A stretch of DNA of 64,000 nucleotides. It comes from Planctomycetota bacterium (GTDB taxonomy: Bacteria; Planctomycetota; Planctomycetia; Pirellulales; Pirellulaceae). Shown piece after piece: positions 9,379 through 24,421 of this stretch. Where the stretch lies: NCBI GenBank assembly GCA_016872775.1, contig VGZA01000013.1, positions 1 to 64,000 of the forward strand, given 5' to 3'. The translations under genes were made by a program, and so were the position numbers. Within the stretch, counting starts at the first letter, position 1. The number at the start of each line of letters is the position of its first letter. Below the pieces are notes generated by a model, which was not told the DNA's origin, searched no databases, and was given only the letters and a program-made list of their open reading frames with translations.

Positions 9379-12300
9379 CTATCGGCGGCGGCGTTGCCGC
9401 CGAACCTCCGACTCAACCACCTGCCACAGCGATTCCCACGCCGAATCGGCCGACGACTCGAACATCGAGTTCGGAAGATCCGAACTTCCCCAAAGAGAGG
9501 ATAGGCTCGTTCTGTCCTGCGATGCCGCGGGCGTCGGCACCGTAGTGAAAAGCTCTTCGATCGCTCGATCGGTATGCGACGCATCGACGACCTGCTCGAT
9601 CCGGAACGATTCGCCTTCTCCGCCAGTCGATTGGTGGTTCAAAAAATTGATGACCAGCAGTGCATCAAGGGCCGTCGCAAATTCATCGCCGCTGACGTCG
9701 TAGAATGCTTCGTTGCCCACCGGGCGAGGCGCGAAGGACGGCAGGAACGGATTGGGAAGTTTCAGGGCGGAGGTCGCCGATCGATTGATGTAGTTGATGA
9801 TCTGCAGGGCATCTTCGGCCGTGACGATGCCATTGTTGGTCACGTCGAGCGGATTGGATGGATTCTGCCACGGCGCCCCTTCGGCGATCGCCTGCATGAT
9901 CACGGTGGCGACTCCCTGGCGGAACGTATTGAACGTGCGCCCGTTCAGTACCTGCACGTTGGTCAGCGTCCAGCCGGTGCCGATGTCGACGGTGTCTCCG
10001 TCGTTGCGGGTTATTTGAAGGGTGTTGCTCGTGTCGGAAAGGGTCAGCACGTCGCGCACGGAGAGCAGCAAGGAGTTGTTTCCCACGCCGGTCAGATCGA
10101 TCTGCTCGATACCCGTAATTCGATGATCGCTCATCGTGCGGAGATTCAACTGGATCCCCGCGCCGTCGACTCGCAAAGTGTCCGAACCGGTGCCACCGTC
10201 GATGCGGGTGAATGTGGCATCCAGCACGGAGATCGAATCGTTACCTTGCCCGCCTCGCAGGACATCAATCCCACCGTTACCCAGCAGCGCGTCGTCGCCT
10301 GAGCCGCCGACGATCCGATCGGAGAGTATCGACCCTGTAAGGACGTTGCTGTTTCGATCACCCTTCTGATCAACCGATTGGGTGAAATCCGCGCCAAAAA
10401 CGACGAACGCCGCGCCGGCCTGAGAACGCGTCGGAGTTCCGGGATCGGCACTCGGAACGCCGACGATAAAGTCCTCGAATCCGTCTCCGTTGATATCGGC
10501 GGCACCGCCCAGGGAAGCGGCGGTACGGTCGCCAGCCAGAACGCCTGTGAATCGAATCCCATTTTCGCCGTTGATGGCATCGACGCCAAGCGTCGGCGAA
10601 AAGTCGCTTGTCGGTCCGCCGAACAGGAGGTACGCTTCGCCGGCGCGGAGCCGGGCAGGGCTGCCGGGATCGGCGTTTGGTGCACCGATCAACAGATCGT
10701 CGTAACCGTCGGCGTTCATATCCCCGACGCCGGCGATCGCGGCGCCTGCGTTGTCGCCTGCCCGCCGTCCTTGGAACTGGAATCCGTTGCTACCGTCAAG
10801 CGAGGCCGCGTCGAGTGCTGTCGTCACTAACGATCGGCCAAAAAACAGGTAGGCGTCGCCGGCCTGCGATCGGGCCAGATCCGCGCCGACCAGGAGATCG
10901 TCGAAGCCGTCGCCATTGACGTCTCCGGCGGACGCCGACTGATGCCGGGACGATGCCAGATTGAAAATCGAGAATCCGTTGGAGCCGGTCAGCGATGCGA
11001 CGTTGACCACGCTGTTCCATGGCCCCGTGCCGCCGAAAAGCACAAAACGCTCCGATCCGCTTGGTCCCCGACCACCGACGACCAGATCGCCCAGCCCGTC
11101 TCCGTTGAAGTCACCGGCGGACGACACATACGTTGCGTCTCCCGCTCCAAACACGTTACCCGCTCCGTCTCGGCCGACAATCGCAAAGCCGTTCGTTCCG
11201 TTCAAGGCGGCAACCGTGATCGTGCTGGGGCTGACGCCCACTCGGCCAAAGACAACGTAGGCTCGTACTCCCTGCCCGACCACATTGGCGCCGGCGATTA
11301 AATCCGCCAGGCCGTCGCCGTTAACATCGCCGGCGGCACTGAGCGACATGCCGAGTTGCGCGCCGGCAGCGGGGCCCTGGATCGCGAACCCGTTTGAGCC
11401 ATTCAGCGTGGTTACATCGAGGGTCGCGAAAAATCCGCCGGACCGGCCATAGATAACAAACACCAATCCGTTGTCCGGCGCGGAACCGTCCCAGGTCGGT
11501 GCGCTGATCGCGAAGTCGGAGATCCCGTCCCCATTCATATCGCCAAGCGCGGTCGCGGCGGTGCCGAGCCGCCCCTGAATCTGACCGCCGAACAGCGAAA
11601 AACCGTTCAGGCCGTTAAGCGTGCTGATATCGACCGAAGCCGCGGAAAAGTCGGCTCGGCCAAAGACCACGTAGACCGCCCCGGCCTGCAATTGCGCGGG
11701 CGCTCCCGCCGTGGCGGACGGCGCAGCGACGAGAAAGTCGTCGAATCCGTCGGCATTGATGTCGCCGATCGCGGTCGCGGTTGTTCCTAACTCCGTGTTC
11801 GCGGTGTTCCCTTCGATCACCAGTCCGGCGGACCCATTTCCACCGCCCGCGGGCGTCAATTGTTCGAGCGGAAATTGGGCATTCGCCGGCGGAGGATTTC
11901 CGACAGTTACCTGCGCGGACACCTCGTTGCTGATGGCGCCCCGCAAGTCAACGGCACGAGCGTGAATCGTGTAGTGCGACTCGGGGAGGCCGAGCGTATC
12001 GAATGACAGGGTCCACCCACCGGAAAACACTGCATCGCTCCCAAGAACGAAATCGCCACCCGCGCCTGTCTGCAAACCGGGCTGAAAATTCGATTCGCGA
12101 TAGAATTCGACGCGGGCGATTGGATCGTCCGGATCGGTGACACCACCCGCGGTCAGTTGAATTCGACCGTCCACCGCGACGCGCGTCGGATCGGCGGACA
12201 GGAAGATGATCGACGGTGACTGATTGACCTCGGTCACCTGAAACTGTTTCGATATCGGTAAACTACCGGCACCCGTGTTGTCGAATGCCACCGCATAGGC

Positions 12301-15300
12301 AGTATGCGGTCCGATTGGCAGCACCGCCGACGAAACCGTCAATGAGAAGTCGTCCGCCGCATTCGCGTCGGTCCCCAACCTTGTATCGCCACCGGCACCC
12401 AATTGCAGACCGACGATCGCGTTGGACTCGCGATAGAATGCCACTTCACTGACCGTTCCGTCAAAATCAGCGACATTACCCGCCGTGATGGTGAACAGCC
12501 CCGGCTTGGTAACCTGTTCCGGACTCACCGTCAGTGATTCGATCGTCGGCACCTGATTCACGCGATTCTCCGTGACAACAATATGGCGTAAAGCGAGCGG
12601 GCTTCGCCGAGCCGTATTGTCGACTAACGTCACCCCCACGGTGCGAAGAGGGGAATCGGGAATCAATCGGTCGTTGAAGAATTGCACATTGCGCAGCAGG
12701 AACGGCGCGATCGTCGGCGTCGCGGCATTCGTGAACTGGATCACCAGGGGCGTGGCATTCGCGCCGCCCTGGATAACGCCAACCTCAATCCCGTTGACGG
12801 ACACCCTGCCGCCAACGATGTGAATCCCCGTGTCTTCATCGCCCAGGGCCTGCAATTGCAGTTGATCGCCCGCCTGCCCGCCGGCAAGCAGATCGACGAT
12901 CAGTTCACCTCCTTCGAGCGAGGACGAATCGAGGTCGATGATTTCGGCGAGCGGATCGAGAAAAACCGGATCGGAACGAAATGGAAAATGAACGGCCTGC
13001 GGCGATAGAGTGACCATGGGCGATTCGATGCCGATGGCGCCTCGCACAAATCCAGTTACCGGGAAACGGAACGTGGGCTGATTGGGATCGTCCGTCGTGA
13101 AACGCAACTCGCCGAATTTGAGGCCCGGCGGGCTGGGATCGAGCCGCAGCGTGATATCCGCGTGCTCCGTGGGATTGATCTGCGACGGGAAAGGGGTTGT
13201 CAATGAAAAACCGACCGGCACCTGGACCAGTCGGGAATTCAATACCGTCGAACCATGGTTCTGTAACCGGAAAGTCATGTCCGCCGGATTGTCCGTCCGA
13301 TTGATGCGGCCGAAGTCAAAGGCAGTCGAACGCCCATTGAGAACGATCGTTTTGGCATGGGATACGCGTAACTGTGGCACCAGCGGCTGGGAAACGATGT
13401 CGAACGATCGGCGTACTTTCTCTTGGTCATTGATGCTCAGCGTAACCGTCCAGCGCCCCGGCAACTGCGACCAGACCGGTGTCAGCGTTTCGTAACTTTC
13501 GTACGAGTGAAACGACGGACCGAACAGGCCGACGCAACCCAGGGCCGACGCATTGATACAGTAGCGAGACCGGGTATCGACCGTACCGTCCGGTCGGTAC
13601 CAGGTGACCTCATAGGTGTCGCGCGTGTTAAGGTGACCGATCTCAAACCAGAAATGTACCGATCCTGTAAACGTCGGATGCAACGTTTCAAATTCGGACG
13701 GTCTCTCGGCGATGTCCTGCGCGGGATCGACGTTCGTCAGCCCCGATCGCAAAACGGCACGCTCCATTCCGCCCTGATACTGCAACGGCTGTAACCAATA
13801 GGCGGTTGGATCCTGGTAAGTGTCGACTAGGGTTCCATTGTGCAGTACCTGAAAACGGAAGATGGGAGCGGCGCGGCTCGCGTCGATCCCCAACAATCCC
13901 AGGACCTGGCCGGCGTCCAGACGATCGCCAATCTGGACCGTGAGGGAAAGTGGATTGACGTTGTGGTACCGCATGCGCCAGCCGTTTCCATAGTCGACCT
14001 CGACAAGGTCGTCAGGGATCGGCAAGGTGCCGAGCGAAAACGACGGCCCCAAGGTGGCGGTGCGGCCGAAAAGTACGAATGACGCGCCGGATGCAATGCC
14101 GCTGCCGTTTGCCGCAGGAGCGCCAATGATCAGGTCGGCAATCCCATCCCGGTTGACATCTCCCGCCGAACTCACGGAACTGCCCGCGGCGTCGCCTGGC
14201 GCAGCTCCGGTCAGACTCAGGCCGCGCGTTCCGTCGCCGTTTGCAAGGTCTCCCAGATTGAATTCGGCGCCGAATCCGCCGGTGCGACCAAACAACAAAT
14301 ACGATTCTCCCGCGCTGCCGGCGCCCGGAGCGCCGATCAACAGATCGTCGCCACCGTCACCATTAAAGTCGCCAATTCCGGCCAGGGACGTCGCAGTTTG
14401 ATCCAACGAACTAACGCCCAACAGTACGGCGCCCTTCGTGCCATTTCCGCCCCCGGATTCCCACAGACTGTTCAAGTCGAATTCCGCAGTGAACGGTGTG
14501 CTTTGGCCGTAGATCAAGTAGCAGAGGCCACTCCCCGATGCCGCCCCATCCGCACCCGACGCGGACACATAAAGATCGTCGATACCGTCGCGGTTCAGGT
14601 CACCGGCCGATCCAATCGGAACGGCCGTCATGTCAAAAAATCCCAAACCGGGAATGACGAATCCTTCGGAACCGTCGCCGATATTCGGTGGTGGCGGCGG
14701 GGGATCGACCGGCGGAAGCGGGGGAATGGGCGGAATCTGACCCGGCGGCGGAGGAGGAGGTGGTGGCGGTGGCGGAAACAACCGGATCACGTCGAAGTCA
14801 GGTTCCCATGCCTCGGTCTTGCCGAAGACCACGTATCCTTCCCCTGTCGATCCGAAAAAACCTTTCCCGACGGTGCCAATCGCCAGATCGCCAATGCCGT
14901 CGTGATTCAGGTCCCCGGCGGAACTGAGCCACTGACCAAATTCATCGAACTCGTCCACGCCGCGAAGAACGAATCCTTTGCTTCCATCCCCGCCATTGAA
15001 GGATTCCAACGAATCCAGGGCAAGTTCGGCCGGAAAGGCAGTCTGCGATCCAAAAAGTACATAAGCGACGCCGACGTCCAACAACATTTCATCCGCGTCG
15101 TCGTCCAACAACATTTTCACGTCAGCGCGCGGGGCGGCCACCGCCAGGTCAACCACCTGATCTCCATTGATGTCGCCGATGCCGCTGACGACCGTGCCCG
15201 AACGATCGAATTCCTGGCTGCCGTTGAGCACAAAACCTCGCGAGCCGTCGCCCCCATTGGCCGCCAACAACAGGGACAGGTCGAGCTCGGCGGGAAATGC

Positions 15301-16353
15301 CTGCGACGATCCGAACAACACGTAGGTTCGCCCCACTTCTTCGAAGCCTTCGACCGATTCCCCCGGGACCCCGACGATCAAGTCCGACAATCCATCGCCA
15401 TTGAAATCACCCGACCCGAACGACTCCAGCGGGATGTCGGCAATCAGAAGCCCGCGACTGCCGTCGCCACCGTTCTTCTCGAGCAAATCGGCGAGTTCGA
15501 TCGTCGACTGGTAAGGGCCGTCGTGTCCAAACACAACGTAAACTCTCTCCGCCGCAATCGAAACAACCGCCAGGTCGGAAATTCCGTCGCCATTGACGTC
15601 GCCCACGGACTGCACAATGCTGCCCGTGCCTTCGTCGTCCTCGAAACCGTTCAATACCATCCCATCTCGTGCTCGTCCGCCCGAACTGATCACCACCCCG
15701 GGCGCCGCCGCGAACAGCGGCAGTCCACGATCGACTTCCGACGCATTGGGCACTGGAATGTCAATTCCGGTTGAACGGTTGGCACTGAAATTGCCGCCGT
15801 TGTAGTCGCGAACTTGAGCTCGTGGATCAACATCGACGTAGTCACGGACCGCCCAGTCCTCGTTCTGTGCGCCCGCCAGCGGTTGCACCATTTTCTGCGT
15901 CAGGGTTGACGGGAACTGTGGAGAATAATTGATGACGAATCGATTATCGGTTTCGTTGGTCTCGGCGACACTGTTGGCGGAGTCGACAGTTACCTCGATC
16001 CGGTGCTCCCCGGGACCGGCGAACCAGCCGCCCTGAATCGTGGCCGCACCCACCGCCTGCCCTGGAACCGTGGAAGGTGTGAAAAAAAGCGCCGACGTCA
16101 AGGGTACGGAATCGTGCAGGAAACGGAGTCGATACGAGGCATCGACGTCGGTCGCTTCCCATGCCGCTCGAAGCCGGATTTGCTCGCCCACCGTCGGTAT
16201 CGAAATCGGATTGGATTCGCCGTCGAGGAATTGAACGTCAAGGATCCGCAGATTGCCGGCGAGCAACTGTCGCGACTCCAGCGACTCAAATAAGGCCCTG
16301 CGGCGCCAGCGTTGATCGAGCGTTATTGGTGCGGCCATGCGACTACGTTTCAT
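9379..16353 (-). CDS. Giant exported FG-GAP / RTX / dockerin protein
   Basis: The product has 2324 residues. The N-terminus carries the planctomycete export tag FESLESRQLLAG (residues 22-33). Then come a CARDB-like domain (about 40-145) and an M23-like N-part (about 185-228). Next are seven FG-GAP motifs of the type GDVNGDGISDLAV (about 250-740), with a proline run near 530-555. An M23-like C-part follows (about 780-848), then a Hydin/choice-of-anchor-like domain (about 1005-1100) and Ig-like repeats (about 1270-1485). Seven more FG-GAP motifs (about 1530-1960), RTX-type GGSGDDALLG repeats (about 2010-2045) and two dockerin-like calcium loops (about 2168-2240) complete it, with a basic end. 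It is probably a calcium-bound surface adhesin or matrix protein. M23 zinc ligands are missing, so peptidase activity is unlikely. The ATG follows GAGG. Confidence 0.9.
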   Translation of the reverse strand: MKRSRMAAPITLDQRWRRRALFESLESRQLLAGNLRILDVQFLDGESNPISIPTVGEQIRLRAAWEATDVDASYRLRFLHDSVPLTSALFFTPSTVPGQAVGAATIQGGWFAGPGEHRIEVTVDSANSVAETNETDNRFVINYSPQFPSTLTQKMVQPLAGAQNEDWAVRDYVDVDPRAQVRDYNGGNFSANRSTGIDIPVPNASEVDRGLPLFAAAPGVVISSGGRARDGMVLNGFEDDEGTGSIVQSVGDVNGDGISDLAVVSIAAERVYVVFGHDGPYQSTIELADLLEKNGGDGSRGLLIADIPLESFGSGDFNGDGLSDLIVGVPGESVEGFEEVGRTYVLFGSSQAFPAELDLSLLLAANGGDGSRGFVLNGSQEFDRSGTVVSGIGDINGDQVVDLAVAAPRADVKMLLDDDADEMLLDVGVAYVLFGSQTAFPAELALDSLESFNGGDGSKGFVLRGVDEFDEFGQWLSSAGDLNHDGIGDLAIGTVGKGFFGSTGEGYVVFGKTEAWEPDFDVIRLFPPPPPPPPPPPGQIPPIPPLPPVDPPPPPPNIGDGSEGFVIPGLGFFDMTAVPIGSAGDLNRDGIDDLYVSASGADGAASGSGLCYLIYGQSTPFTAEFDLNSLWESGGGNGTKGAVLLGVSSLDQTATSLAGIGDFNGDGGDDLLIGAPGAGSAGESYLLFGRTGGFGAEFNLGDLANGDGTRGLSLTGAAPGDAAGSSVSSAGDVNRDGIADLIIGAPAANGSGIASGASFVLFGRTATLGPSFSLGTLPIPDDLVEVDYGNGWRMRYHNVNPLSLTVQIGDRLDAGQVLGLLGIDASRAAPIFRFQVLHNGTLVDTYQDPTAYWLQPLQYQGGMERAVLRSGLTNVDPAQDIAERPSEFETLHPTFTGSVHFWFEIGHLNTRDTYEVTWYRPDGTVDTRSRYCINASALGCVGLFGPSFHSYESYETLTPVWSQLPGRWTVTLSINDQEKVRRSFDIVSQPLVPQLRVSHAKTIVLNGRSTAFDFGRINRTDNPADMTFRLQNHGSTVLNSRLVQVPVGFSLTTPFPSQINPTEHADITLRLDPSPPGLKFGELRFTTDDPNQPTFRFPVTGFVRGAIGIESPMVTLSPQAVHFPFRSDPVFLDPLAEIIDLDSSSLEGGELIVDLLAGGQAGDQLQLQALGDEDTGIHIVGGRVSVNGIEVGVIQGGANATPLVIQFTNAATPTIAPFLLRNVQFFNDRLIPDSPLRTVGVTLVDNTARRSPLALRHIVVTENRVNQVPTIESLTVSPEQVTKPGLFTITAGNVADFDGTVSEVAFYRESNAIVGLQLGAGGDTRLGTDANAADDFSLTVSSAVLPIGPHTAYAVAFDNTGAGSLPISKQFQVTEVNQSPSIIFLSADPTRVAVDGRIQLTAGGVTDPDDPIARVEFYRESNFQPGLQTGAGGDFVLGSDAVFSGGWTLSFDTLGLPESHYTIHARAVDLRGAISNEVSAQVTVGNPPPANAQFPLEQLTPAGGGNGSAGLVIEGNTANTELGTTATAIGDINADGFDDFLVAAPSATAGAPAQLQAGAVYVVFGRADFSAASVDISTLNGLNGFSLFGGQIQGRLGTAATALGDMNGDGISDFAISAPTWDGSAPDNGLVFVIYGRSGGFFATLDVTTLNGSNGFAIQGPAAGAQLGMSLSAAGDVNGDGLADLIAGANVVGQGVRAYVVFGRVGVSPSTITVAALNGTNGFAIVGRDGAGNVFGAGDATYVSSAGDFNGDGLGDLVVGGRGPSGSERFVLFGGTGPWNSVVNVASLTGSNGFSIFNLASSRHQSASAGDVNGDGFDDLLVGADLARSQAGDAYLFFGRSLVTTALDAASLDGSNGFQFQGRRAGDNAGAAIAGVGDMNADGYDDLLIGAPNADPGSPARLRAGEAYLLFGGPTSDFSPTLGVDAINGENGIRFTGVLAGDRTAASLGGAADINGDGFEDFIVGVPSADPGTPTRSQAGAAFVVFGADFTQSVDQKGDRNSNVLTGSILSDRIVGGSGDDALLGNGGIDVLRGGQGNDSISVLDATFTRIDGGTGSDTLRVDGAGIQLNLRTMSDHRITGIEQIDLTGVGNNSLLLSVRDVLTLSDTSNTLQITRNDGDTVDIGTGWTLTNVQVLNGRTFNTFRQGVATVIMQAIAEGAPWQNPSNPLDVTNNGIVTAEDALQIINYINRSATSALKLPNPFLPSFAPRPVGNEAFYDVSGDEFATALDALLVINFLNHQSTGGEGESFRIEQVVDASHTDRAIEELFTTVPTPAASQDRTSLSSLWGSSDLPNSMFESSADSAWESLWQVVESEVRRQRRRR

Positions 16354-19969: not shown

Positions 19970-22138
19970 CTAGTCCGCCTCGGCATCCTGTGCGGGAAAC
20001 AGATTCAACGCGAGTCGCAACGCCTCGAGCGGCACTCCCAGGCTCCATGCGGCTGCGATTCCCGCAAGCACATTCGTGATCTGTCCGACTTCCGACGATG
20101 TGTGGATCAGGGGCACTTCGAGTAACGTTATCAAGCGGGTTTCCTCGACGCCGGTCGCCAACACAATCGCTCCGTCGCGGACAAACACGCAGCGACCGGC
20201 GGAGCCACGATGAGCGGCTAGCGCCGGCGACTGCGGCTCACGCGAAACGAAGATGACGCTTCCCTTGCAGGCGGAAGCCATTTCGACAACCAGCGGATCT
20301 TCCGCGTTCAACACCGCCACGCCATGCGGCAGGACCACGTCGACGACGCTCCGATCAAGCCGCACGCGATTCTCGAGTGTCTCCATCCCGTGCATCGGCA
20401 GCGTCTCGACAGGGCCCAGACTGGTGATAATCCCCACCTCACAGCGGTCGAATCCCAGCCCTTCGCGTCCGATCGTTTCCGCTCCCACGCAGAAAACCGC
20501 CGCCTCGACGATTGGGTTGAGCAACAAGCAGCGAGCGGCCTCCGATTCCGATTGCCCCGGCAAATCGCTGCAACGATCTCCCACCATAACGCGATGCGTC
20601 GTCACCAGTCCGATCACCCGATTGGTTGCGCGGAGCAGGTGGGCGACCAGACGGGCCGTGGTGTTGCGGCCCCGCGTGCCCGCTACAGCGATCAGCGGAA
20701 TGCGGCCGGTATCGCCCTTGGGAAAGAGCATCTCGACAATCGCGTCGCCGACGGGGCGCGGCTCGCCCTCGGTCGGTTCAATATGCATCCGCAGCCCCGG
20801 CCCGGCGTTCACTTCCACGATGGCGCCCCGCTGGTCTTCCAGCGAACGGCTGATGTCGATCGCGACGATGTCCACGCCGGCGATGTCCAGCCCGACGATC
20901 TTCGCCGCTTCGATCGCCCGGGCGGCAACTTCGGGGTGAACCCGATCGGTCACATCGGTGGACGTTCCACCCGTACTCAGGTTTCCATTGCGTCGGATCA
21001 GCGCGACACGACCCTGGGGCAGAACCGATTCGGGGGTGAACCCCTGCTCGGCCAGAACCTCCAGACCGATCGGATCGAGCTTGATGTAGCTGAGCACCGT
21101 GGCATGGCCGTCGCTGCGCCGGGGATCGCGGTTGACCTCGGCAACAAGCTGAGCAATCGTCGACGAGCCGTCGCCGATGACATGCGCTGGATGGCGGACG
21201 GCGGCGGCTACCATGCGGTCGCCGACCACCAGAACCCGATGGTCGATTCCCTCAATGAACTGCTCGACCATCAAGTATTCGCTTTCCAGACCGGCCGTAT
21301 CGTAGGCCTTGGCAATCTGTTCCCGCGTTCGCAGGTCGGTCTGCACACCGCGACCATGATTGCCGAATTGCGGTTTTACGACCACCGGCAGCCCCAGCGA
21401 CTGGGCCGCCTCCCAGGCCTCGTCAGCGCTGGAGACCGTTCGACCGTCCGGTACGGGAACGCCAGCGCTCTTCAAGAGCAGCCGCGTCAGCTCCTTATCC
21501 TGGGCGACCGCTTCAGCGATTGCGCTGGTGCGATCCGTTTCCGCGGTGCAGATGCGGCGGGCCTTCGCGCCGATTCCGAGCTGCACCAGGCTGTGCCTGT
21601 TCAGCCGCCGATACGGAATGCCTCGGCTCTTTGCCGCCTTGACAATCGCGAATGTGCTCGGCCCCAGGCGCACGTCATACGCCATTTCCTTTAATCGCGC
21701 AATTTCCACCGCAACATCGAATGGCCCGTCATCGATCGCGGCGAGGATCAGCTGGCGTCCGGTATCCAGGCAGGCGCGGGCCAGCGATTCCTCCTCGAAC
21801 TGAATCGCGACGCGGTAAACGCCATCCTCATCCAGTTCCCTGGCCCGGCCGTATCCGCAGGAGCTTCCGGCCAGCGCCTGGAGTTCCAGCGTGACATGCT
21901 CCAGAATATGGGCCATGTAGGTCCCACGTTCCAGGCGTTGAAAGAAACCACCTCGCTCGCCGACACTGCAGCGGTGTTCCACCAGAGTCGGCAGCCAGTT
22001 TTTGAGGCGATCGTTGAACCCCGGGATCAGTTCGGACGAGCGATCTCGCAGATCGCCCAGGTCAACGAGTACCTCTAGGACGGGGAAATTGGCCCAGTAA
22101 TTCGGGCCGTTCAGAGTCCAGATCCGACGAAAGTCCAT
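19970..22138 (-). CDS. Cyanophycin-synthetase-like protein: ATP-grasp intact, Mur-ligase half degenerate
   Basis: This 722-residue protein is collinear with CphA1 but lacks its C-terminal Mur domain. N domain at 1-160 (WTLNGPNYW) has AHILEHVTLE with H77, H81 and E85, resembling the primer-generating metal site recalled for CphA1. ATP-grasp runs from about 205 to 475, with VVVKPQFGNHGRG, DHRVLVVGDRMVA, GNLSTGGTSTDVTD and VEVNAGPGLRMH all well kept. The Mur-like region begins near 485, but its P-loop reads GTRGRNTT instead of GTNGKTTT, and the chain ends before the TPGRMNLF-type domain. In CphA1, ATP-grasp adds Asp to the backbone and the Mur half adds Arg. This protein could do only the first step alone. 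It lies 6 bp downstream of its paralogue. It may correspond to what is called CphA-prime in proteobacteria. Confidence 0.88.
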   Translation of the reverse strand: MDFRRIWTLNGPNYWANFPVLEVLVDLGDLRDRSSELIPGFNDRLKNWLPTLVEHRCSVGERGGFFQRLERGTYMAHILEHVTLELQALAGSSCGYGRARELDEDGVYRVAIQFEEESLARACLDTGRQLILAAIDDGPFDVAVEIARLKEMAYDVRLGPSTFAIVKAAKSRGIPYRRLNRHSLVQLGIGAKARRICTAETDRTSAIAEAVAQDKELTRLLLKSAGVPVPDGRTVSSADEAWEAAQSLGLPVVVKPQFGNHGRGVQTDLRTREQIAKAYDTAGLESEYLMVEQFIEGIDHRVLVVGDRMVAAAVRHPAHVIGDGSSTIAQLVAEVNRDPRRSDGHATVLSYIKLDPIGLEVLAEQGFTPESVLPQGRVALIRRNGNLSTGGTSTDVTDRVHPEVAARAIEAAKIVGLDIAGVDIVAIDISRSLEDQRGAIVEVNAGPGLRMHIEPTEGEPRPVGDAIVEMLFPKGDTGRIPLIAVAGTRGRNTTARLVAHLLRATNRVIGLVTTHRVMVGDRCSDLPGQSESEAARCLLLNPIVEAAVFCVGAETIGREGLGFDRCEVGIITSLGPVETLPMHGMETLENRVRLDRSVVDVVLPHGVAVLNAEDPLVVEMASACKGSVIFVSREPQSPALAAHRGSAGRCVFVRDGAIVLATGVEETRLITLLEVPLIHTSSEVGQITNVLAGIAAAWSLGVPLEALRLALNLFPAQDAEAD

Positions 22139-22144
22139 TGTTGA

Positions 22145-24421
22145 TCAGGATTGGCCTGGTTGTGCCGGCACGACGGCGGGCACCGCCGGCGCGGGATCCA
22201 ATGAGGCTTTCATCGTGACTTCGTGGATATCGACATCACTGGCCAGATGTCGGTTCACCAGCGCGACTGCCTCGTCGATCGTATCGGCCTGCAGTAACAA
22301 CAGGTCGCCGGGCCGGAGGCTCTTCAATGCCTGTTCCGCCGCATTTTCCCAACCCTGGATCGATTGCGCGTCGCGGACCCGTCTCCCGTGCGTCAGGCCT
22401 TGTTGAAACAACCGCATGATGTCGCCCGGTTCGCGGCCCCGCACATACTGATCTTCGTAAATCAGCACGCGATCAAAGGCGTTGCCCAACATTTCCCCCT
22501 GACGAATCATGTCGCTGTCGCGACGATCGCCTGCGGCCGAGTAAACCGCCACGCGATTGCGATGGGGGAACAGGGCCAGCGCATCGAGCATCGCGGCCAG
22601 CGAGGAAGTATTGTGACCGTAATCGACGACGACCGTCGCGCCGCCCATCTCCAGCAGATTGAATCGGCCGGGCGACGTGTCGATGCTGGCGGCGAAAGAC
22701 TCCAGGCCATTACGAATAATCTCGGCCGGCGTGCCCAACGCCCAATTTGCCGCGGTGGTCGCCAATGCGTTTTCGACTTGAAAGAGAATCCGTCCACCGT
22801 GGGTCAACGGTATGCGATCGACAGAGAGCAGGGGGATCTCCAGGCTGCCCTCCGCCAGCACCATGAAATTATCCCGCACGAACACCACACGGCCGCCCGC
22901 GGCGCGATGCTCGACCATCACCGGATGGTCCGCGTCCAGGCAAAAGAAAATCGTATTGCCCGGACAATGCGACGCCATTTCCGCCACGAGCGGATCGTCA
23001 GCTTTCAGGACGGCTGTGCCGCTCTTGGACACCGCGGTCACGATGATCCGCTTCACGCGTGCCAACTGCTGGGGAGTATGAATGTCGTTCAGACCCAGAT
23101 GATCTCCCTCGCCGATATTCATCACCACCGCCACGTCGCATCGGTCGAACGCCAACCCTTCACGCAACATGCCCCCGCGAGCGGTCTCCAGGATCGCGGC
23201 GTCGATCGTCGGATTCATCAGTACATTGCGAGCGCTTCTCGGCCCACTGCAATCGTCGTGATCAATGCGGCGACCATTCACGTAGATGCCGTCCGTACAA
23301 GTCATGCCAACACGCTTTCCGGTCAACGCCACCGTATGAGCGATCATGCGCGTGGTCGTGGTCTTGCCGTTCGTGCCGGTGACACAGGCGATCGGGATCC
23401 GACCATTCTGATGGCCCGGAAACATGGTTTCGATAATCGCACTGCCAATTCTCTGGGCGACCGTCGGCGAAATCCCGCACAGCGCGTCGAGGTCCGGTTG
23501 CACCGCCACTTCCAGTACCCGCATCGGTTCGTTCAATTCGCGGCTGGCAATCCGCACCATGCCGATATCGAGTCCGACCGCACGGACTGCGTCGACCGCC
23601 TGACTCGTCCATTCCGAAGTCAGACTCCCCGTAACGTCCCGAAGCTGCTCGTCGTCGTGACGCACTCCCACCACCGCCTGACCACCGATGACCAGCAAGG
23701 AAAAGTGCGGGTCGCCGCTTTCGGCAAACGCAATGCCCGCGGACTTCAGCAACGAACAGGTCGTCTCGGCCTGACCGGCGATCGTTTCCGCGATCGCACT
23801 CGTGCGATCGCTCCTATTCGACATGAAGCGTCTCTGGCGGGATCCCCACCCCAGCTGCTGAAACTGGTCAGTCGGCAATCGAAGCATCGGTACGCCGTTG
23901 GCCCGTGCTGCCAGCGCCAATTCGCGCTGCAACGCCGTGGGACGACAGTCACGCCAATGCGCATTCAGTTGTTCCACCGCCGCCGCGACGTCGAACGGTG
24001 CGCCGCTGGCGACCGCAGCGATGAACCGCTCTGCGGTCTCCAGGCATTCGCGCGCCAGCGACTCGAATTCAAAGCCGATCACCACCTTGTACAGACAAGG
24101 CTCACTTCCCCGCTCGACGTGAACGTGGCAGACCCTCGTTCCTGAAATGACCGACTGAAGTTCATTCGCGCATCGCCCCACCAGCCGAGCCGCATCGACC
24201 TCGTCGTGAAATGGCAACTCGTCAGCACGATGGCAGGCGACGCCACAGGCGCCATGCAGCGTGGCGCAGAATTGCATTAACCGCTCGCGAACCGTCGGGA
24301 CAACCAGCTCCGCCTGCTCCGTCGACGAAATCGCCAGCCACGCTTCCAAGCTCGGAGACGTTGTCCACAAATTCGGTCCACGCAAATGAAGAACTTTCCG
24401 AAGTTCCATAACAAGATGCAT
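22145..24421 (-). CDS. Cyanophycin-synthetase-like protein: Mur-ligase intact, ATP-grasp half collapsed
   Basis: The product has 758 residues from ATG 24421; an upstream TTG at 24505 is less likely, and ATG 24409 also fits. The N-terminus ELRKVLHLRGPNLW matches CphA. The HxxxHxxxE motif of its neighbour is lost here (ARLVGRCANELQ). Between DRTSAIAE (about 205) and the P-loop there are only about 140 residues, against about 280 in the neighbour. The ATP-grasp signature blocks are gone apart from FSLLVIGGQAVVGV and traces of the end. The Mur half is intact: GTNGKTTTTRMIAH near 348, ETARGGMLREGLAFDRCDV, SPGRFNLLEMGG near 585, VVDYGHN and AAGDRRDSD. It should catalyse ATP-dependent amide formation, Arg addition in the canonical enzyme. 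It is first in a two-gene operon, divergent from the ABC exporter. Confidence 0.88.
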   Translation of the reverse strand: MHLVMELRKVLHLRGPNLWTTSPSLEAWLAISSTEQAELVVPTVRERLMQFCATLHGACGVACHRADELPFHDEVDAARLVGRCANELQSVISGTRVCHVHVERGSEPCLYKVVIGFEFESLARECLETAERFIAAVASGAPFDVAAAVEQLNAHWRDCRPTALQRELALAARANGVPMLRLPTDQFQQLGWGSRQRRFMSNRSDRTSAIAETIAGQAETTCSLLKSAGIAFAESGDPHFSLLVIGGQAVVGVRHDDEQLRDVTGSLTSEWTSQAVDAVRAVGLDIGMVRIASRELNEPMRVLEVAVQPDLDALCGISPTVAQRIGSAIIETMFPGHQNGRIPIACVTGTNGKTTTTRMIAHTVALTGKRVGMTCTDGIYVNGRRIDHDDCSGPRSARNVLMNPTIDAAILETARGGMLREGLAFDRCDVAVVMNIGEGDHLGLNDIHTPQQLARVKRIIVTAVSKSGTAVLKADDPLVAEMASHCPGNTIFFCLDADHPVMVEHRAAGGRVVFVRDNFMVLAEGSLEIPLLSVDRIPLTHGGRILFQVENALATTAANWALGTPAEIIRNGLESFAASIDTSPGRFNLLEMGGATVVVDYGHNTSSLAAMLDALALFPHRNRVAVYSAAGDRRDSDMIRQGEMLGNAFDRVLIYEDQYVRGREPGDIMRLFQQGLTHGRRVRDAQSIQGWENAAEQALKSLRPGDLLLLQADTIDEAVALVNRHLASDVDIHEVTMKASLDPAPAVPAVVPAQPGQS

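Follow-up and report, generated by a model that had tools for sequence, protein, structure and literature searches.

According to the available text of PMC9262961, the cyanophycin synthetase CphA1 divides its work among three active sites: the N site cuts chains into primers, the G domain adds Asp, and the M domain adds Arg. On a single chain, the enzyme thus switches between two ligase sites and one that makes primers, and the cooperation of these sites has been studied there by means of artificial heterodimers. SuCphA1 heterodimers engineered with complementary dead sites were active with primer, and dividing the sites over two protomers is therefore chemically feasible; for the second heterodimer, the text and the figure legend disagree (N-G+M+/N+G-M- and G-M+N+/G+M-N-, respectively), and only the legend's version splits G and M over protomers. 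The N-site consensus is given in the same source as Cx19HxxEH, which is fully present in 83% of nr70 CphA1 sequences. The available part of PMC9427784 sets the module borders of CphA1 at 1-161 (N), 162-234/306-324/400-487 (Gcore), 235-305 (Glid), 325-399 (Gomega), 488-723 (Mcore), and 724-876 (Mlid). Besides, gene clusters in which an ABC transporter accompanies two copies of cphA have been described (PMC10687191, in its available part). A published split CphA1 of the kind described below was not found in the open-access papers that were searched.

We analyzed two adjacent CphA-like genes in a 64,000-nucleotide stretch of planctomycete DNA (here, the window), which belongs to genome G000. It is likely, in our estimation, that this locus encodes a two-gene CphA1 which arose by duplication and in which the two products cooperate, probably within a heteromer, with P0001 adding Asp and P0002 adding Arg.

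Anatomy of the gene pair

Both genes lie on the minus strand, and their frames are open throughout. P0002 (758 aa; 22145..24421), the first gene of the pair, is referred to as the b subunit, and P0001 (722 aa; 19970..22138), the a subunit, starts 6 bases past the P0002 stop codon. Residue roles were taken from the available text of PMC9262961 and PMC9427784, and SuCphA1 numbering is used.

P0001 contains all CphA1 modules except Mlid, of which 4% of the columns are covered. It aligns with CphA1 positions 4 to 723 of solved structures and ends at about position 723, which is the published Mcore/Mlid border; the proposal of a first-pass annotation that this protein keeps ATP-grasp and lacks the final Mur domain was thereby confirmed, the G domain being complete. 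The primer-peptidase motif Cx19HxxEH, from C57 to H81 (21896..21970, minus strand), is intact, with C57, H77, E80, and H81 equivalent to C59, H79, E82, and H83 in SuCphA1. The G residues H267, R309, R323, N394, S396, and R458 are all kept, and position 215 is altered (E215A). The M site is lost: the P-loop has degenerated to GTRGRNTT (20657..20680, minus strand), in which the catalytic Lys is replaced by Arg, the substitutions amount to K499R, T500N, E558C, D585E, and H586T, DHLG has become ETLP, and there is no lid.

P0002 contains all modules except Glid (8% of columns) and Gomega (5%), the three Gcore pieces being covered at 100, 95, and 92%, and it aligns with positions 4 to 235 and 420 to 889 of solved CphA1 structures. 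The first-pass annotation had reported a loss of about 140 ATP-grasp residues in this protein. The loss is real and comprises 146 positions by the published borders of Glid and Gomega together, but it is not a single gap: two deletions, with approximate junctions from the alignment at 23708..23728 (Glid) and 23639..23644 (Gomega; both minus strand), flank a Gcore strand that is kept (95%). The N site is broken, with the Cys aligned and both His residues and the Glu missing; thus, the earlier statement that only P0001 keeps the N-domain motif stands, although the motif is Cx19HxxEH and not HxxxHxxxE. The G-site positions are missing or altered, and position 215 is Thr. In the M domain, 9 of the 9 tested Mcore positions (G495, G498, K499, T500, T522, E558, D585, H586, and F692) and the Mlid residues R731 and H748 are retained, and all expected motifs were found, namely GTNGKTTTT (the intact P-loop; 23351..23377, minus strand), DHLG (equivalent to D585 and H586 of SuCphA1; 23093..23104, minus strand), DYGHN, and GDR. 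The intact P-loop of P0002, the broken one of P0001, and the open frames are all as first described.

In both proteins the module losses coincide with published module borders. Neither protein carries the three CphA1 sites on one polypeptide, and in combination they hold every CphA1 module and all tested catalytic residues, with the exception of position 215. We checked by alignment whether catalytic residues had shifted elsewhere, such that either protein would be a single full CphA1, and this was ruled out, as the lost modules stay empty.

Among NCBIfam models, both proteins fall with cyanophycin synthetase. P0001 scored 971 bits against NF010623 (cutoff, 877; model positions 1 to 719 of 871), and P0002 scored 653 bits, below the cutoff, with the best match at model positions 395 to 865; the equivalog cutoff of TIGR02068 (850) was reached by neither (scores of 802.5 and 551.8). 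The family models would accordingly label P0001 a cyanophycin synthetase on the strength of NF010623, despite its dead Arg-adding half. AlphaFold models had mean pLDDT values of 84.3 for P0002 and 90.8 for P0001. The P0002 model superposed on TeCphA1 (7wae_A) with a Z score of 56.9 and an rmsd of 2.5 Å over 711 aligned residues (30% identity), and that of P0001 superposed on CphA1 7txv_A with a Z score of 47.3 (3.1 Å, 716 aligned) and more poorly on CphA2 7ta5 (Z score of 26.1, 3.8 Å, 574 aligned), although the agreement with CphA1 is partly built in, because the input alignments consist of CphA1 sequences.

Recurrence, phylogeny, and genomic context

Both gene types were found in four planctomycete genomes: the window genome, G797 (same family), G433 (a different family), and G470 (same genus as G433). 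In G797 and G433, b and a are adjacent in that order, with the a gene of G797 cut by a contig end, and in G470 they lie on separate contigs (b on C424 and a on C119), so that adjacency and the order b-a are kept in three of the four genomes. All four a proteins keep the N site and the six G residues and have lost K499 and D585/H586, and all four b proteins keep the tested M residues, with Glid and Gomega coverage of 5 to 32%; these residue statements, like the others given here, rest on the rows listed from a 207-row alignment or from further alignments. In the a protein of G470, only 69% of Mcore is left, which, together with the separation of the genes in that genome, indicates that neither adjacent genes nor a complete Mcore is an absolute requirement. 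The recurrence of this build in three further genomes rules out an assembly or frameshift artifact. Within the dead N domain encoded by the b gene of G797 (L219, 1287-4055), there is a series of short repeats that are almost identical to one another.

Searches in which every first-look candidate was scored revealed no full CphA1 in G000 (99.91% complete), G433, or G470, nor in G797 (with P0001 as the query), where one contig-end CphA-like fragment (C387) is unexplained; the completeness of three of the four genomes is 84 to 93%. Contig C53 of the window genome carries a third CphA-like gene (L048, 4341-6476, minus strand), which has a broken N site, the changes R323G, N394D, S396T, and R458S, and a degenerate M domain. 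It adjoins a gene for a CehA/McbA family metallohydrolase, and its relatives in G797 (C821) and G600 group with it (support of 1.0).

P0002 matches 107 of 396 genomes of the order (E ≤ 1e-40) and 39 of 241 of the family, and P0001 matches 108 of 396 order genomes (E ≤ 1e-150); a search for related loci with P0002 alone as the query returned none. The frequency of the pair is a lower bound, since only part of the matching loci were read module by module, some short frames among the P0001 matches (e.g., those of G539, G464, G685, and G528) falling outside that part, and a diverged b gene may pass for a full CphA1 in the match list, as was seen with G797. Truncated a-like genes in G422, G418, G438, G407, G449, G440, and G431 were considered as further split pairs and rejected, because all seven genomes have a full CphA1 elsewhere and all seven genes carry R323G and R458Q. 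These stand-alone genes (L082 to L088) keep the N site and most G residues, have a dead M domain and no Mlid, and adjoin the cyanophycin ABC transporter in six of seven cases. The two substitutions look as if Asp recognition had changed, and the genes are possibly a planctomycete counterpart of CphA2. Another division of the sites is seen in G548, in which L081 (8020-10245) combines an N site with an M domain and has lost Glid and Gomega, and L092 (3-2477), which is cut by a contig end, has G and M domains and no N site.

In a tree of the N and G domains, the four a proteins form one clade (SH-like support of 1.0) inside planctomycete CphA1. The best M-domain tree joins the b protein of the window to that of G797 (0.985) and the b protein of G433 to that of G470 (1.0) without uniting these two groups; a single clade for all four b proteins was not rejected (p-AU of 0.42). 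In the Mcore tree, the a proteins are intermixed with the stand-alone truncated paralogues (support of 0.89 to 0.95), which may reflect attraction among fast-evolving dead modules. Six rows (near-duplicates and contig-cut or fragmentary proteins) are left out of the trees. It is simplest to assume that the pair arose once, an assumption that is less secure in the case of b.

Divergent from the pair lies a gene for a cyanophycin metabolism-associated ABC transporter (NF052233; 25118..27373, plus strand; 1088 bits, cutoff of 880), followed by one for a cyanophycin metabolism-associated DUF1854 protein (NF052234; 27386..27862, plus strand; 165 bits, cutoff of 150). The NF052233 transporter is likewise divergent beside the pair in G433 and beside b in G470, and in G797 its N-terminal part is divergent next to b at a contig end (129 bits). 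Among 14 loci with a single full CphA1, the transporter lies alongside in six (G596, G606, G548, G353, G365, and G573), DUF1854 only is present in two (G418 and G438), and neither is present in six (G600, G422, G407, G440, G431, and G105). The transporter thus accompanies both the pair and the full CphA1 of several relatives, and therefore the pair occupies the place that CphA1 has in those relatives.

The window genome also encodes a cyanophycinase-like protein on C49 (TIGR02069, 243 bits; cutoff of 126.6; 451 residues of a longer frame scored) and two Asparaginase_2 proteins (PF01112, the family of the isoaspartyl dipeptidase IaaA). The whole genome has four Mur_ligase_M matches only, namely the two CphA halves, one on C3 that by eye looks like FolC, and one on C16; hence, this genome seems to have fewer of the Mur ligases for peptidoglycan than is usual. 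Elsewhere in the window, at 9379-16353 (minus strand), a 2,324-residue open frame shows, by eye, many repeated GDxNGDG-like motifs and Pro-rich runs.

Module evolution and candidate mechanism

The rates of change in the two proteins are mirror images. P0001 is 69, 73, 64, and 44% identical to the canonical CphA1 of G596 in N, Gcore1, Gomega, and Mcore, respectively, and P0002 is 37, 38, 67, and 59% identical to it in N, Gcore1, Mcore, and Mlid; for comparison, the canonical enzymes of G600 and G596 share 76% (N), 75% (Gcore1), 64% (Gomega), 70% (Mcore), and 59% (Mlid). In three comparisons (window-G797, G433-G470, and window-G433), dN was 0.14 to 0.34 for catalytic modules and 0.48 to 1.02 for dead ones, and between the full CphA1 proteins of G407 and G440 it was 0.06 to 0.07 across all modules. 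For the closest pair, G433-G470, the dN/dS values of dead modules were 0.53/0.93 (Mcore of a), 0.56/1.38 (N of b), and 0.48/1.69 (G of b), ratios that are only rough because silent sites are near saturation. As all are below 1, this suggests that the dead modules are under relaxed yet remaining constraint, as expected of a scaffold. The first-pass view of two complementary, half-active CphA subunits is borne out at the gene level by motifs, module borders, recurrence, synteny, these rates, and the failure to find a further CphA1 in the genome, and we regard this interpretation of the genes as well supported.

As for the order of evolutionary steps, we infer that an ancestral CphA1 gene beside the cyanophycin ABC transporter probably underwent tandem duplication. 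In copy a, the primer site of the N domain and the ATP-grasp G domain would have survived, while the M active site decayed and Mlid was deleted. Copy b would have come out with its M domain preserved, its N site broken, and its G domain reduced to Gcore by deletion of Glid and Gomega. P0001 would then cut chains into primers and add Asp at the chain C terminus, and P0002 would attach Arg to the side chain of that newly added Asp, the two alternating on one chain and standing side by side in a mixed dimer or tetramer. The available text of PMC9427784 describes Gcore as the dimer interface of CphA1 and Mcore as touching three Gcores in the tetramer, and since these cores make such contacts, their retention in a dead state suggests a mixed assembly. 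Three points temper this argument: a b homodimer would also explain the retention of Gcore, the a protein of G470 is missing part of its Mcore, and identity between the window and G797 is low in the dead modules of b (N, 34%; Gcore1, 33%; Gcore3, 40%), their divergence between lineages making a weaker case for a conserved interface. A heteromer of P0001 and P0002 is nevertheless the best reading of the sequences and a plausible one. To the fuller proposal of an obligate heteromeric synthetase, probably a2b2, we would give an even chance; in it, each subunit would contribute one ligase site and the dead core of the other as a scaffold, one gene encoding the N and G sites and the other the M site, and nature would thereby have produced an equivalent of the engineered heterodimers with mixed sites.

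Next in standing is a relay between separate homo-oligomers, in which the chain would leave P0001 after Asp addition and diffuse to P0002 for Arg without any mixed complex. Each protein does have a complete active site and a CphA1-like fold in the models, and the genes are nonadjacent in G470, but adjacency and the same order in three of four genomes, with a spacing of 6 bases in the window, argue against such independence, as does the loss of both lids while Gcore, the published dimer interface, remains. We consider the relay unlikely.

It is less likely still that P0001 is a CphA2-type enzyme polymerizing beta-Asp-Arg dipeptides alone, with P0002 as a separate Arg ligase. The outline is the same, CphA2 also being without the M P-loop and Mlid (PMC9427784, available text). 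However, P0001 scores 576 bits against CphA1 and only 197 and 208 bits against 7ta5 (CphA2) and 8fxh, respectively, has the N site that is absent from CphA2, and retains Arg at position 458, where the three cyanobacterial CphA2-like sequences examined have Leu or Met. Moreover, it groups inside planctomycete CphA1 in the tree, and no other CphA1 for making the polymer was found in the genome.

That cyanophycin synthesis is being lost and the pair is turning into pseudogenes seems very improbable: the fast evolution of the dead modules and the decayed paralogue on C53 would fit, but in all four genomes the tested catalytic residues of the kept halves are intact (position 215 excepted), their conservation is near canonical, and the frames are open. 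Least probable of all is that the product is not cyanophycin but a polymer in which some other amino acid forms the backbone or side chain, for although P0001 has Ala and P0002 has Thr at position 215, a contact of the Arg side chain in TeCphA1, ordinary planctomycete CphA1 also has Ser, Thr, Ala, Met, or Gly there and the Asp-contact residues are kept. The altered substrate choice suggested in the first-pass annotation is likewise unsupported, because P0001 retains the published Asp and chain contacts (R309, R323, N394, S396, and R458) and conservation in the M domain of P0002 roughly equals that in ordinary CphA1. We also dropped position 215 as a cross-subunit adaptation, given its variation in ordinary planctomycete CphA1.

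Comparison with known systems

The pair shares with CphA1 (TIGR02068/NF010623; PDB 7LG5 and 7WAE) the family, the order of modules, and the neighboring genes, the last of these in some of the relatives. It differs in that CphA1 holds the N, G, and M sites on one polypeptide, whereas the pair has N and G on one and M on the other, each without the lid modules of its dead half. P0001 resembles CphA2 (PDB 7TA5) in having no working M P-loop and no Mlid; in contrast, CphA2 has no N site and Leu or Met at 458, whereas P0001 has the N site and R458, branches within planctomycete CphA1, and has an M-domain partner.

In Proteobacteria, cphA occurs in two-gene loci with a Mur-type partner gene, which is called cphA'. 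Such loci resemble the pair in having two adjacent genes and a partner with an intact M domain, and it had been asked whether they show the same decay. We did not see it in a comparison set of 17 loci that have at least two CphA-like frames, although in two of them (L133 and L160) the second match is only weak (75 and 90 bits, respectively). The remaining 15 belong to Proteobacteria, Myxococcota, Acidobacteria, Gemmatimonadetes, and one planctomycete, and their CphA1 has kept all tested positions apart from 215 and 692, which vary. Their partner is an open frame of 544 to 858 residues with a clear CphA match in the M domain only (scattered short N/G matches in 4 of 15). In contrast to these loci, no complete CphA1 was found in the genome carrying P0001 and P0002.

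Tandem full-length CphA pairs (L035, L036, L037, and L041) were observed in G369, G283, G321, and G216, from another order of the class. One copy has the N site together with R323G, R458L, and H748R, and the other has no N site and intact G and M domains. By sequence, this is a milder partition, with a gene order opposite to that of P0002 and P0001.

If the two-gene reading is true, the enzyme would let the Asp and Arg steps be switched off, titrated, or swapped separately. The pair also shows which CphA1 modules can be shed and which are retained, perhaps only for assembly, and it clearly exemplifies how the duplicated copies of an oligomeric enzyme can undergo complementary active-site loss. 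As in the engineered SuCphA1 heterodimers, the active sites are shared out between two chains; whereas those carry laboratory point mutations, P0001 and P0002 have undergone natural loss that includes whole lid modules.
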